A DNA stretch of 64,000 nucleotides from Antedon bifida (lineage: Eukaryota; Echinodermata; Crinoidea; Comatulida; Antedonidae), in assembly GCA_963402885.1 (NCBI GenBank), contig OY727095.1:35097001-35161000 (forward strand). Reading direction: 5' to 3'. Shown here piece by piece: positions 139 through 58,425 of this stretch. The position numbers were made by a program, and so were the translations under genes. Every line of letters begins with the position of its first letter. Within the stretch, counting starts at the first letter, position 1. Below the pieces are notes generated by a model. That model saw only the letters and a program-made list of their open reading frames with translations, made no database searches and was not told the origin of the DNA.

Positions 139-42764
<42,626 letters not shown>

Positions 42765-43299: not shown

Positions 43300-43660
43300 A
43301 CATTTTTTTTTTTTTAAATTGACCAAATTTCGACCACTTTATTTTTTGACAAAACTGGTTACTATGATAACGCAATATATGCACATATATGGCAATATTA
43401 TTGCATAAAATATAATTTTAAAAAGTCGATATTTTGGCCACTTTTTCGAAAAAATCTCTGTACAGGGAAATTTTCGAAAAATTGTCAAATTTCGACCCTT
43501 TTATTTTTGCCCTAACTAGTTACTATGGCTCTATAATATGTCTATAACACAATATATGCGCATATATGGCTCTATTATCTCATAATTATTGAATTTTAAA
43601 ATTTTGGTAATTTTTCGAAAAAAGGCCAATTTTCGACCTTTTTATTTCTCGATAAAACTG
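43300..43660. repeat. Diverged edge of the 195-bp satellite
   Basis: Fragments such as aatttcgaccactttatt, aaaactggttactatg and ggccactttttcgaaaa resemble the main array but carry many changes, with catatatgg stretches in place of the catgcgcag block. Typical of an un-homogenised array border. Confidence 0.7.
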
Positions 43661-46600
43661 GTTACTATAGCACAATTGACATGCGCAGAACCCATTATTC
43701 GACTCTGCGCATGTTTATAATGCTATAGTAACCATTTATGTCAAAAAATAAAAGGGTCGAAAATTGGCCATTTTTCGAAAATTTTCCTTACTATAGTACA
43801 GGGATTTTTTCCAAAAACGGCCAATTTTCGACCTTTTTATTTTCGATAAAACTGGTTACTATAGCACAATTGACATGCGCAGAACCCATTATTCGACTCT
43901 GAGCATGTTTATTATGCTATAGTAACCAGTTATATCAAAAAATAAAAGGGTCGAAAATTGGCCATTTTTCGAAAATTTTCCTGTACTATAGTACAGGGAT
44001 TTTTTCCAAAAAAGGCCAATTTTCGACCTTTTTATTTCTCGTTAAAACTGGTTACTATAGCACAATTGACATGCGCAGAACCCATTATTCGACTCTGCGC
44101 ATGTTTATAATGCTATAATAACCATTTATGTCAAAAAATAAAAGGGTCGAAAATTGTCCATTTTTCGAAAATTTTCCTTACTATAGTACAGGGATTTTTT
44201 CCAAAAATGGCCAATTTTCGACCTTTTTATTTTCGATAAAACTGGTTACTATAGCACAATTGACATGCGCAAAACCCATTATTCGACTCTGCGCATGTTT
44301 ATTATGCTATAGTAACCAGTTATATCAAAAAATAAAAGGGTCGAAAATTGGCAATTTTTCGAAAATTTTCCTGTACTATAGTACAGGGATTTTTTCCAAA
44401 AATGGCCAATTTTCGACCTTTTTATTTCTCGTTAAAACTGGTTACTATAGCACAATTGACATGCGCAGAACCCATTATTCGACTCTGCGCTTGTTTATTA
44501 TGCTATAGTAACCATTTATGTCAAAAAATAAAAGGGTCGAAAATTGGCCATTTTTCGAAAATTTTCCTTACTATAGTACAGGGATTTTTTCCAAAAATGG
44601 CCAATTTTCGACCTTTTTATTTTTGATAAAACTGGTTACTATAGCACAATTGACATGCGCAGAACCCATTATTCGACTTTGCGCATGTTTATTATGCTAT
44701 AGTAACCAGTTATGTCAAAAAATAAAAGGGTCGAAAATTGGCCATTTTTCGAAAATTTTCCTATACTATAGTACAGAGATTTTTTCCAAAAATGGCCAAT
44801 TTTCGACCTTTTTATTTTTCGATAAAACTGGTTACTATAGCACAATTGACATGCGCAGAACCGATTATTCGACTCTGCGCATGTTTATTATGCTATAGTA
44901 ACCATTTATGTCAAAAAATAAAAGGGTCGAAAATTGGCCATTTTTCGAAAATTTTCCTTACTATAGTACAGGGATTTTTTCAAAAAATGGCCAATTTTCG
45001 ACCTTTTTATTTTTCGATAAAACTGGTTACTATAGCACAATTGACATGCGCAGAACCCATTATTCGACTCTGCGCTTGTTTATTATGCTATAGTAACCAT
45101 TTATGTCATAAAATAAAAGGGTCGAAAATTGGCCATTTTTGGAAAAAATCCCTGTACTATAATAGTACAGGGATTTTTTCCAAAAATGGCCAATTTTCGA
45201 CCTTTTTATTTTTCGATAAAACTGGTTACTATAGCACAATTGACATGCGCAGAACCCATTATTCGACTCTGCGCATGTTTATTATGCTATAGTAACCATT
45301 TATGTCAAAAAATAAAAGGGTCGGAAATTGGCCATTTTTCGAAAATTTTCCTGTACTATAGTACAGAGATTTTTTCCGAAAATGGCCAATTTTCGACCTT
45401 TTTATTTTTCGATAAAACTGGTTACTATAGCACAATTGACATGCGCAGAACCGATTATTCGACTCTGCGCATGTTTATTATGCTATAGTAACCATTTATG
45501 TCAAAAAATAAAAGGGTCGAAAATTGGCCATTTTTCGAAAATTTTCCTATACTATAGTACAGAGATTTTTTCCAAAAATGGCCAATTTTCGACCTTTTTA
45601 TTTTCGATAAAACTGGTTACTATAGCACAATTGACATGCGCAGAACCGATTATTCGACTCTGCGCATGTTTATTATGCTATAGTAACCATTTATGTCAAA
45701 AAATAAAAGGGTCGAAAATTGGCCATTTTTCGAAAATTTTCCTTACTATAGTACAGGGATTTTTTCCAAAAATGGCCAATTTTCGACCTTTTTATTTTTC
45801 GATAAAACTGGTTACTATAGCACAATTGACATGCGCAGAACCCATTATTCGACTCTGCGCTTGTTTATTATGCTATAGTAACCATTTATGTCATAAAATA
45901 AAAGGGTCAAAAATTGGCCATTTTTCGAAAATTTTCCTTACTATAGTACAGGGATTTTTTCCAAAAATGGCCAATTTTCGACCTTTTTATTTTTCGATAA
46001 AACTGGTTACTATAGCACAATTGACATGCGCAGAACCCATTATTCGACTCTGCGCATGTTTATTATGCTATAGTAACCATTTATGTCAAAAAATAAAAGG
46101 GTCGAAAATTAGTCATTTTTCGAAAATTTTCCTTACTATAGTACAGGGATTTTTTCAAAAAATGGCCAATTTTCGACCTTTTTATTTTTCGATAAAACTG
46201 GTTACTATAGCACAATTGACATGCGCAGAACCCATTATTCGACTCTGCGCTTGTTTATTATGCTATAGTAACCATTTATGTCATAAAATAAAAGGGTCGA
46301 AAATTGGCCATTTTTCGAAAATTTTCCTTACTATAGTACAGGGATTTTTTCCAAAAATGGCCAATTTTCGACCTTTTTATTTTTCGATAAAACTGGTTAC
46401 TATAGCACAATTGACATGCGCAGAACCCATTATTCGACTCTGCGCATGTTTATTATGCTATAGTAACCATTTATGTCAAAAAATAAAAGGGTCGAAAATT
46501 AGTCATTTTTCGAAAATTTTCCTTACTATAGTACAGGGATTTTTTCCAAAAAATGGCCAATTTTCGACCTTTTTATTTTTCAATAAAACTGGTTACTATA

Positions 46601-46818
46601 GCACAATTGACATGCGCAGAACCCATTATTCGACTCTGCGCATGTTTATTATGCTATAGTAACCATTTATGTCAAAAAATAAAAGGGTCGAAAATTGGCC
46701 ATTTTTCGAAAATTTTCCTTACTATAGTACAGGGATTTTTTCCAAAAATGGCCAATTTTCGACCTTTTTATTTTTCGATAAAACTGGTTACTATAGCACA
46801 ATTGACATGCGCAGAACC
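43620..46818. repeat. ~195-bp satellite array, about 17 units, double palindrome
   Basis: The motif atgcgcagaaccc (one unit reads aaaaccc) recurs at 43681, 43875, 44071, 44265, 44461, 44655, 44851, 45046, 45245, 45441, 45636, 45831, 46026, 46221, 46416, 46612 and 46806. Each unit has one inverted repeat around ctatagtaca with arms ggtcgaaaattggcca, and a second with arms ggttactatagca and catgcgcag. The last unit is cut at 46818. Because 195 is a multiple of three, long stop-free frames (up to 443 codons) arise, but they mirror the repeat and are not genes. Confidence 0.95.
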
Positions 46819-47553
46819 CTGTTGTGAAAGACTGGCACGATACAATATAATTCTATTTGATAGAGGAGGTTTTTAGTTGTAATGGTATAAATTGTTTTAA
46901 AGAATCTCCGTTTTAGGTTCTTAAATTGTAGTACAGTACACAATAGTTATATTATTATAAAATGGAATATACACAATAAACACTTGTTCTCTCTTGTGGT
47001 TCAATATATTTATACACTATTCATATTGCTAGATTACATTTTTTATATTTGATACAAAGGTATCATTCGTAGGCTAGAATATAATTCACATAATAGGCTA
47101 TAGTCTATTTCAACCTACTTTCCATAGTTCTACGTTAAATATTTACTTATACGTCTGGTGCCTACGGCAGTCCCGTCATTCCTACTTGTTTAACACAGAC
47201 CATTCCCGCCTGTGGCCTAGAATTTCTTTAACATTTCTAGTTCATTTGTTGGCCTAGGGCTGTGTGTAATACTCCATATATAACGGGGTTATGTAGGCCT
47301 AACCCAAATTCTATTTGTGTTGCATGTTCTATTTCAATGTTCTAAAGAATTAGAATTTTCTTACTTCAAGTACAGTAAAATATTTTTTTAATTTTCCTGT
47401 AATATAATACAATAACAGTGATAATTTAAATACAAGTTTAAACAACATTAACGAATATTCTGTAATTAATAGTTATTTTGATTAATTCGTATACAAAATA
47501 TACAAGGAACTTAATAACAATGCAAAATGTAATTAATACACGCGGTTTAATCC

Positions 47554-47717
47554 TTAAGCTCTGTCTACACTATCAAACTTCATGTGACAACAAAATGTGA
47601 TGTGCCCATATGAACATGATAATGTCATATCACTACCATATTTGGGTACATCACTACCATATTTGGGTACATCACACTTTTTTGTCAAACTAGTTTGATA
47701 GTGTAGACAGAGCTTTA
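47554..47717 (-). mobile_element. Foldback MITE family 1, copy 7
   Basis: Ends ttaagctctgtctacactat and tagtgtagacagagcttta; reverse orientation; two tandem accatatttgggtacatcac blocks. Stands in intergenic DNA after the satellite. Confidence 0.92.
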
Positions 47718-51462: not shown

Positions 51463-54400
51463 GACAGCACATGGCTTATGCGTCCATTATTCAACTAGAT
51501 GCGGTCCTTATTCTTCTTATAAAGACAGCACATGGCTTATGCGTCCTTATTCAACTAGATGCGGTCCTTATTCTTCTTATAAAGACAGCACATGGCTTAT
51601 GCGTCCATTATTCAACTACATGCGGTCCTTATTCTTCTTATAAAGACAGCACATGGCTTATGCGTCCTTATTCAACTAGATGCGGTCCTTATTCTTCTTA
51701 TAAAGACAGCACATGGCTTATGCGTCCTTATTCAACTAGATGCGGTCCTTATTCTTCTTATAAAGACAGCACATGGCTTATGCGTCCATTATTCAACTAG
51801 ATGCGGTCCTTATTCTTCTTATAAAGACAGCACATGGCTTATGCGTCCATTATTCAACTAGATGCGGTCCTTATTCTTCTTATAAAGACAGCACATGGCT
51901 TATGCGTCCATTATTCAACTAGATGCGGTCCTTATTCTTCTTATAAAGACAGCACATGGCTTATGCGTCCTTATTCAACTAGATGCGGTCCTTATTCTTC
52001 TTATAAAGACAGCACATGGCTTATGCGTCCTTATTCAACTAGATGCGGTCCTTATTCTTCTTATAAAGACAGCACATGGCTTATGCGTCCATTATTCAAC
52101 TAGATGCGGTCCTTATTCTTCTTATAAAGACAGCACATGGCTTATGCGTCCTTATTCAACTAGATGCGGTCCTTATTCTTCTTATAAAGACAGCACATGG
52201 CTTATGCGTCCATTATTCAACTAGATGCGGTCCTTATTCTTCTTATAAAGACAGCACATGGCTTATGCGTCCTTATTCAACTAGATGCGGTCCTTATTCT
52301 TCTTATAAAGACAGCACATGGCTTATGCGTCCATTATACAACTAGATGCGGTCCTTATTCTTCTTATAAAGACAGCACATGGCTTATGCGTCCTTATTCA
52401 ACTAGATGCGGTCCTTATTCTTCTTATAAAGACAGCACATGGCTTATGCGTCCATTATTCAACTAGATGCGGTCCTTATTCTTCTTATAAAGACAGCACA
52501 TGGCTTATGCGTCCTTATTCAACTAGATGCGGTCCTTATTCTTCTTATAAAGACAGCACATGGCTTATGCGTCCATTATTCAACTAGATGCGGTCCTTAT
52601 TCTTCTTATAAAGACAGCACATGGCTTATGCGTCCATTATTCAACTAGATGCGGTCCTTATTCTTCTTATAAAGACAGCACATGGCTTATGCGTCCTTAT
52701 TCAACTAGATGCGGTCCTTATTCTTCTTATAAAGACAGCACATGGCTTATGCGTCCTTATTCAACTAGATGCGGTCCTTATTCTTCTTATAAAGACAGCA
52801 CATGGCTTATGCGTCCATTATTCAACTAGATGCGGTCCTTATTCTTCTTATAAAGACAGCACATGGCTTATGCGTCCTTATTCAACTAGATGCGGTCCTT
52901 ATTCTTCTTATAAAGACAGCACATGGCTTATGCGTCCTTATTCAACTAGATGCGGTCCTTATTCTTCTTATAAAGACAGCACATGGCTTATGCGTCCATT
53001 ATTCAACTAGATGCGGTCCTTATTCTTCTTATAAAGACAGCACATGGCTTATGCGTCCTTATTCAACTAGATGCGGTCCTTATTCTTCTTATAAAGACAG
53101 CACATGGCTTATGCGTCCTTATTCAACTAGATGCGGTCCTTATTCTTCTTATAAAGACAGCACATGGCTTATGCGTCCTTATTCAACTAGATGCGGTCCT
53201 TATTCTTCTTATAAAGACAGCACATGGCTTATGCGTCCATTATTCAACTAGATGCGGTCCTTATTCTTCTTATAAAGACAGCACATGGCTTATGCGTCCA
53301 TTATTCAACTAGATGCGGTCCTTATTCTTCTTATAAAGACAGCACATGGCTTATGCGTCCATTATTCAACTAGATGCGGTCCTTATTCTTCTTATAAAGA
53401 CAGCACATGGCTTATGCGTCCTTATTCAACTAGATGCGGTCCTTATTCTTCTTATAAAGACAGCACATGGCTTATGCGTCCTTATTCAACTAGATGCGGT
53501 CCTTATTCTTCTTATAAAGACAGCACATGGCTTATGCGTCCATTATTCAACTAGATGCGGTCCTTATTCTTCTTATAAAGACAGCACATGGCTTATGCGT
53601 CCTTATTCAACTAGATGCGGTCCTTATTCTTCTTATAAAGACAGCACATGGCTTATGCGTCCATTATTCAACTAGATGCGGTCCTTATTCTTCTTATAAA
53701 GACAGCACATGGCTTATGCGTCCTTATTCAACTAGATGCGGTCCTTATTCTTCTTATAAAGACAGCACATGGCTTATGCGTCCATTATACAACTAGATGC
53801 GGTCCTTATTCTTCTTATAAAGACAGCACATGGCTTATGCGTCCTTATTCAACTAGATGCGGTCCTTATTCTTCTTATAAAGACAGCACATGGCTTATGC
53901 GTCCATTATTCAACTAGATGCGGTCCTTATTCTTCTTATAAAGACAGCACATGGCTTATGCGTCCTTATTCAACTAGATGCGGTCCTTATTCTTCTTATA
54001 AAGACAGCACATGGCTTATGCGTCCATTATTCAACTAGATGCGGTCCTTATTCTTCTTATAAAGACAGCACATGGCTTATGCGTCCATTATTCAACTAGA
54101 TGCGGTCCTTATTCTTCTTATAAAGACAGCACATGGCTTATGCGTCCTTATTCAACTAGATGCGGTCCTTATTCTTCTTATAAAGACAGCACATGGCTTA
54201 TGCGTCCTTATTCAACTAGATGCGGTCCTTATTCTTCTTATAAAGACAGCACATGGCTTATGCGTCCATTATTCAACTAGATGCGGTCCTTATTCTTCTT
54301 ATAAAGACAGCACATGGCTTATGCGTCCTTATTCAACTAGATGCGGTCCTTATTCTTCTTATAAAGACAGCACATGGCTTATGCGTCCTTATTCAACTAG

Positions 54401-54790
54401 ATGCGGTCCTTATTCTTCTTATAAAGACAGCACATGGCTTATGCGTCCATTATTCAACTAGATGCGGTCCTTATTCTTCTTATAAAGACAGCACATGGCT
54501 TATGCGTCCTTATTCAACTAGATGCGGTCCTTATTCTTCTTATAAAGACAGCACATGGCTTATGCGTCCTTATTCAACTAGATGCGGTCCTTATTCTTCT
54601 TATAAAGACAGCACATGGCTTATGCGTCCATTATTCAACTAGATGCGGTCCTTATTCTTCTTATAAAGACAGCACATGGCTTATGCGTCCTTATTCAACT
54701 AGATGCGGTCCTTATTCTTCTTATAAAGACAGCACATGGCTTATGCGTCCTTATTCAACTAGATGTGGTCCTTATTCTTCTTATAAAGAT
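51463..54790. repeat. 60/61-bp tandem array, about 55 units, with internal block duplication
   Basis: Unit gacagcacatggcttatgcg, then tccttattcaactagatgcg (or tccattattc, one base longer), then gtccttattcttcttataaa. I count 30 short (60 bp) and 25 long (61 bp) units, 3325 bp, matching the span. Apart from the extra A, units are almost identical, with rare variants at the third unit (actacatg), at two units with attatac, and at the last (atgtgg). The order of short and long units repeats with a 1451-bp (24-unit) offset. Overlapping open frames follow the repeat and are not genes. Confidence 0.97.
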
Positions 54791-55017
54791 TCAATAATGA
54801 ATTAATTCATTTTTTTCTTTTTTTTTCATTTGTTTAATCAATTATATATTTCAAGCAACAAATATGATGTTCTATATTTTTTTACCTTACCATGTTTTTT
54901 ACTCTTTTTATATTTCTTTAAATCTGTATTTTTTAGGAAGGTTTTAATTGAATTGTAACGAGAAGCCGAGCTCACATTTTATATTATACTGTATTATGTG
55001 ACAATAAAGTGTATATT

Positions 55018-55229
55018 TACATGCGGCACTTATTCGACTACACGCGGCATTTATTCGACTACACGCGGCACTTATTCGACTACATGCGGAACTTATTCGA
55101 CTACATGCGGCACTTATTCGACTACATGCGGCACTTATTCGACTACACGCGGCATTTATTCGACTATGCGGCACTTATTCAACTATGCGGCACTTATTCG
55201 ACTGATGATGCGGCACTCATTCGACTAAA
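55018..55229. repeat. 21-bp tandem repeat, about 10 units
   Basis: gcgg recurs at 55023, 55044, 55065, 55086, 55107, 55128, 55149 (21 bp apart), then 55168, 55187 and 55210. Unit is close to gcggcacttattcgactaca. Sequence resembles part of the neighbouring 60-bp unit (ttattcaactagatgcggtc). Confidence 0.95.
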
Positions 55230-56377: not shown

Positions 56378-56534
56378 TAAAGCTCTGTCTCACTATTTTA
56401 TGTGAAAAAATGTGATGTGCCCATATATGGACATGATGATGTCATACAACTACCATATTTAGTCGTATCACTACCACATTTGGGCACATCACACCATTTT
56501 TGTCAAACTAGTTTGATAGTGTAGACAGAGCATA
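56378..56534 (-). mobile_element. Foldback MITE family 1, copy 8
   Basis: Left end shortened (taaagctctgtctcactatt), right end intact (tagtgtagacagagcata); reverse orientation. Confidence 0.88.
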
Positions 56535-57924: not shown

Positions 57925-58425
57925 CAGTAGAACCTATATTAGGGGACACTTCGACAGGACCAGAACGAAGGGTCCCTTTAATAATAGGAATGTCCAAAGA
58001 GTCATGGGTTGCCGATCGTTCGTTTCAATGGAAAGTGTCCCATTAATAGGAGTGTCCAAAGAGGGTTGCCGATCGTTCGTTTCAATGGAAAGTGTCCCTT
58101 TAATAGGAGTGTCCAAAGAGTATGGGTTGCCGATCGTTCGTTTCAATGGAAAGTGTCCCATTAATAGGAGTGTCCAAAGAGGGTTGCCGATCGTTCGTTT
58201 CAATGGAAAGTGTCCCTTTAATAGGAATGTCCAAAGAGGGTTGCCGATCGTTCGTTTCAATGGAAAGTGTCCCTTTAATAGGAGTGTCCAAAGAGTATGG
58301 GTTGCCGATCGTTCGTTTCAATGGAAAGCGTCGCTTTAATAGGAATGTCCAAAGAGGGTTGCCGATCGTTCGTTTCAATGGAAAGTTTCGCTTTAATAGG
58401 AGTGTCCAAAGGAGGGGATCTACTG
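57925..58425. mobile_element. Foldback-ended element containing a 57-61-bp tandem array (7 units)
   Basis: Left end cagtagaacctatattaggg, right end ggaggggatctactg; the outer cagtag/ctactg bases are inverse. Inside, gccgatcgttcgtttcaatg recurs seven times from about 58011 to 58363, spaced 57-61 bp, with gtccctttaataggagtgtc between. The ends look like a small DNA transposon whose inner part expanded as a minisatellite; the transposon reading is inference. Confidence 0.65.

Follow-up and report, generated by a model that had tools for sequence, protein, structure and literature searches.

A 24-unit block duplication in a 60/61-bp minisatellite array of the crinoid Antedon bifida

The array and its genomic setting

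The window, that is, the whole stretch of 64,000 nucleotides of Antedon bifida DNA that was analyzed, corresponds to positions 35097001–35161000 of contig C8, which comprises 35,441,846 bases. A minisatellite of 55 non-coding units occupies window positions 51463–54789 on the plus strand, as do all parts of it described below. The last 10 kb of the contig end in (TTAGGG)n, which begins at about contig position 35,439,825 and thus places the end of the array about 288 kb from the telomere.

Splitting of the array at the repeated start of the unit yielded 25 long units (61 bp) and 29 short units (60 bp), closed by one more unit of the short type. This last unit was scored as 62 bp because the splitting script took in the two bases GA that trail it. 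The result agreed with the initial annotation, in which a two-letter 60/61-bp array with letters differing by one A had been described.

Length aside, 4 of the 55 units carry a single-base variant, of which there are three. Five unit types were thus distinguished: short (29 units), long (22), long with ATTATAC (2), long with ACTACATG (1) and short with GATGTGG (1). The variant ACTACATG is private to unit 3 (51584–51644), located just outside the duplicated block, and GATGTGG is private to the last unit, unit 55 (54728–54789). The order of the units is LSLSSLLLSSLSLSLSLSLLSSLSSLSSSLLLSSLSLSLSLSLLSSLSSLSSLS, followed by the last short-type unit.

With 55 head-to-tail copies of a 60/61-bp unit, within the range of about 7–100 bp that characterizes minisatellites, and with five unit types forming an order map, the array is an MVR-type (variant-repeat) minisatellite, ordinary for one situated close to the end of a chromosome. 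A frame scan within the array revealed no plus-strand reading frame open across the units beyond 152 codons, since the mixture of 60- and 61-bp units closes the frames. A protein-coding repeat was considered and rejected, as frames are shut where the unit length changes; no product of the array was detected.

The array is confined to a single place. A pattern search of the genome with a 48-base piece of the unit, allowing up to three mismatches, returned 54 matches, all of them inside the array. The left flank had one genome match at E ≤ 0.001, namely itself. The 37 genome matches of the right flank comprised itself, 27 matches to a 21-bp array and 9 to the A+T-rich stretch preceding it. This A+T-rich stretch (about 54856–55018) ends just before the 21-bp array, resembles nine other places in the genome at 73–81% and, as judged by eye, has an end reminiscent of a retroelement 3′ tail.

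Duplication of a 24-unit block

Self-comparison and unit-by-unit typing of the array recovered a repeated block at a single offset of 24 units. Units 4–28 equal units 28–52 letter for letter (25 in a row), and no matching run longer than 8 was present at the other unit offsets listed. The offset amounts to 1451 bp, equal to 11 long and 13 short units. At the base level, identity at this offset extends over 1559 bp, with a mismatch at either side, while the next longest exact repeat in the array at another offset measures 558 bp. The initial annotation had given the same unit order and the same unit arithmetic; both were reproduced, and the order proved exact in the letters of the units as well.

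The first copy of the block (units 4–27, 1451 bp) lies at 51645–53095 and the second (units 28–51, 1451 bp) at 53096–54546, with the match running on into unit 52. The full identical stretches of 1559 bp extend over 51620–53178 and 53071–54629, respectively, and overlap by 108 bp, in which the junction is located.

The rare ATTATAC variant is carried by unit 15 (52310–52370) and by unit 39 (53761–53821), 1451 bp apart. The earlier claim that it occurs exactly twice holds inside the array; the string CCATTATAC, present there at 52331 and 53782, was also found once far outside, at 2230. The occurrence of the rare unit at matching places of both copies adds to the case for a duplication. Variants confined to one unit (units 3 and 55) fall outside both blocks.

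In chance tests, none of 20,000 shuffles of the string of long (L) and short (S) units contained a 24-unit block repeated without overlap, the maximum being 22. Markov strings were trained on the observed string with its duplication left in, and such a block appeared in 0, 3 and 2 of 20,000 strings of order 1, 2 and 3, respectively. Under a looser test, in which self-overlapping runs of short period counted as well, none of 20,000 shuffles attained a run of 25; the Markov strings did so 15, 55 and 42 times in 20,000 for orders 1, 2 and 3, respectively. Two-letter strings hold little information, and a length of 24 is sometimes reached by the second- and third-order Markov strings, which counts against the duplication.

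On the whole, a single tandem duplication of 24 units is the best reading of the array and a well-supported one, and copying of this type is a common mode of enlargement in minisatellites. It also provides a sign of past multi-unit gain, as expected of hypervariable minisatellites (VNTRs). With one block removed, no significant older block was detected in the remaining 31-letter order: the longest run was 9 (P = 0.18), the 6-unit offset gave P = 0.09, and the best offset up to 15 gave P = 0.40.

The one-base difference in unit length thus acts as a natural bar code, by which a 1.45-kb duplication is exposed among near-identical units. The array could serve as a marker in the source species.

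Alternative explanations and mechanism

The two copies are identical across 1559 bp, and near-identical repeats are a common source of assembly errors. The 24-unit block might therefore have been entered twice, or two alleles of unequal length might have been merged. Such an artefact is considered unlikely: at 3.3 kb in all, the array would be shorter than a usual long read, the contig continues to its (TTAGGG)n end, and the pattern search of the genome turned up no further copy elsewhere.

A very unlikely explanation is that the block represents a higher-order repeat, or that a series of smaller duplications built it up. The repeated LSS groups at the end of the array (a run of 8 at offset 3) indicate that multi-unit steps of smaller size have taken place. 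A higher-order satellite would repeat its block many times at a constant period, whereas only two copies exist here, and units 1–3 and 53–55 break the 24-unit period. Against successive smaller steps stands the limit of 558 bp on exact repeats at any other offset. In addition, none of 1,350 simulated arrays evolving by gains and losses of up to 6 units (9 settings with 150 arrays each) reached a 24-unit block, the maximum being 23. This simulation is only a rough model of the alternation of letters, because neighboring letters switched at a rate of 0.28–0.49 in the simulated arrays, compared with 0.69 in the real one.

It is hardly credible that selection maintains the array for a putative function, as a regulatory or protein-binding repeat whose dose was altered by the duplication: a core is common to arrays at 18 other places, but this array has no coding frame, and units, spacings and flanks vary among the core-sharing arrays.

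The single-step duplication is retained, and its mechanism is what we infer from the copied order and the junction. An array of about 31 units would have grown to 55 in one step, with a stretch of 24 units (1451 bp) copied in tandem. Sister chromatids, or a strand under repair, would have been misaligned by 24 units, and the misalignment would have been followed by a crossover or by copy-type (SDSA) repair. The copied order is exact and the junction sits inside 108 bp of perfect homology, so that the event most likely involved either two sister chromatids or a single molecule.

Judging from the exact 24-letter order, the event most likely took place within one allele, because another allele would rarely carry an identical order and exchange between alleles would usually mix two orders. 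Crossover and SDSA-type repair leave the same product and cannot be told apart in one genome, which holds one product. Taken as a whole, we regard it as highly probable that this is a locus-specific, non-coding minisatellite with a unit derived from an older core, enlarged from about 31 to 55 units by one 24-unit tandem copy through sister or strand misalignment.

The initial annotation had interpreted the array as the result of a recent large unequal exchange or block duplication. The single 24-unit block duplication stands, while "unequal exchange" is too definite, being one among several mechanisms with the same product. The term "recent" is too definite as well. It is plausible in view of copies without differences over 2 × 1451 bp; the limit that this sets on age is weak, since few differences would be expected anyway when 51 of the 55 units belong to just two types.

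Arrays have been represented as strings of variant units (MVR maps) in human and mouse work. The human minisatellites MSY1, INS and MS32 are likewise composed of tandem units of tens of base pairs, with few variant types and an order readable as a string; the Antedon array differs from them in that its letters differ by one base in length and in that one genome was read. Some alleles of MSY1 and INS are described as carrying block duplications (PMC2674676). For MSY1, conversion-type repair is favored and SDSA has been proposed, and the reported length changes amount to 1–3 units (PMC2599865); a step of 24 units would be large by comparison, which counts against the proposed single step.

The human subtelomeric D1S80 resembles the present array in its position near a chromosome end, in its variant repeats and in the changes reported close to the center of its array (PMC3356730). 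Three reported D1S80 mutants are one-unit duplications, in contrast to the 24-unit gain seen here (PMC3356730). The same source conveys the view that neither slippage nor unequal crossover is the chief mechanism at human minisatellites. In the available text of PMC3504011, from the literature on minisatellites and echinoderm tandem repeats, the word crinoid does not occur. The array belongs to the known MVR-map kind and breaks no new ground by itself.

Core-sharing arrays and other features

The family of arrays sharing a core with the 60-bp unit is more curious than the array itself. About 230 bp downstream of the array, the tandem-repeat listing contained a 21-bp array of 10.1 copies (55018–55227, plus strand), and alignment revealed a core common to both units. 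The alignment score of the 60-bp unit was 20 against the 21-bp unit (maximum 16.5 in 5,000 shuffles) and 16.5 against a dispersed 17-bp motif, approximately CTTATTCRACTGCGGCA (maximum 14.0 in 5,000 shuffles). The 60-bp unit thus carries the CTTATTCRAC...TGCGG core of the family, at a score reached by none of 5,000 shuffles.

The core GCACTTATTCRACTR had 67 exact matches in the genome and its reversed pattern none. Grouped by eye, these matches fell into 19 places, the window among them, on 9 contigs. The exact core is absent from the 60-bp units and present in the adjoining 21-bp array. Twenty relatives were examined, namely the 18 other core places and two places obtained from the right-flank matches.

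In 17 of these 20, the tandem-repeat finder detected an array with the tag TTATTC(A/G)A in its unit. The remaining three were L038, with an array of 17-bp units near the core, L037, with 2.2 copies, and L027, which lacks one. The prevailing distance between cores was 17 bp in 15 of the 20 relatives (by a single gap in L037). It was 34, 21, 65 and 51 bp in L026, L031, L034 and L036, respectively, and L027 has a single core.

With the cores masked, the flanks of the 20 relatives and the window gave 51 cross matches at 1e-5. Judged by position, 47 of them were attributed to a single dispersed palindromic element, which left one match of 382 bp at 66% (L031/L034) and three of 44–57 bp. A common mobile carrier of the core arrays was sought in these flanks and not found; they share only the palindromic element and these four matches.

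Unit comparison suggests a likely order of events. The dispersed 17-bp motif would have given rise to a local 21-bp form, four bases longer; two 21-bp units, one of them with about 18 inserted bases, would have formed the 60-bp unit; one added A would have produced the long 61-bp form; and the block duplication would have come last. The ties of the 60-bp and 21-bp arrays to the dispersed 17-bp core family would thus reflect nested steps of array growth.

A bolder proposal, to which we attach little credence, is that GCACTTATTCRACTR marks a minisatellite family, spread across the crinoid genome, that repeatedly arises at unrelated sites, with a protein or a break-and-repair activity acting on the core to seed and enlarge arrays. 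If so, the 24-unit jump would be one product of a core-targeted activity.

Minisatellite families sharing a core are known from the Jeffreys core. The likeness lies in arrays at many places, with different units and a short common core (here GCACTTATTCRACTR); the difference is that the human core is G-rich, whereas that of Antedon is A+T-rich. One core-family array, at about 1130–2040 of L013 (the place of L031), is seemingly intronic, and the stretches flanking it are, as judged by eye, presumably P4-ATPase exons.

The palindromic element consists of at least two 21-bp units (approximately ACTACCATATTTGGGCATATC) and was located in the window at 750–797, 7584–7631, 13729–13777, 14435–14477, 42000–42047, 47629–47675 and 56449–56496, as well as in L026, L027, L029, L035 and L040. 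A genome search recovered 282 exact copies of its 42-base dimer and none of the reversed pattern. The CCATATTTGG of its unit fits the CArG box, CC(A/T)6GG, of SRF/MADS factors. This box pattern occurs 31 times in the window; across 20 random sequences of first order it averaged 6.7 occurrences and never exceeded 13. Of the 31 occurrences, 12 lie inside a 195-bp array.

Tandem arrays make up 26 stretches of the window (merged by hand), covering 9,375 of 64,000 bases. The 195-bp array (43611–46819) comprises about 16 copies, has a longest exact repeat of 247 bp and contains open frames of 184 and 443 codons, which may be open solely because its period is a multiple of three. A 57-bp array (57982–58416), whose period is also a multiple of three, overlaps a 160-codon open frame. 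On the minus strand, an uninterrupted frame of 645 codons (28566–30503) encodes an RVT_1 reverse transcriptase domain (E = 2.5e-26) and perhaps derives from a LINE-type element.

The mitochondrial contig, whose traits point to a crinoid, measures 15,844 bp; published lengths for crinoid mitochondrial genomes include 15,792, 15,878 and 15,887 bp. Its COX1 is best translated under the echinoderm and flatworm code, in which AAA gives N and AGA/AGG give S at residues that we take to be conserved. The frames, as we read them, place nad4L between nad4 and nad5; a 2006 paper is said, by its title, to describe a unique nad4L rearrangement within crinoids. The composition of the COX1 strand is 26.4% A, 46.7% T, 11.4% C and 15.4% G, close to the values stated in the available text for the crinoid Florometra (26.9 A, 44.9 T, 12 C and 16.1 G).
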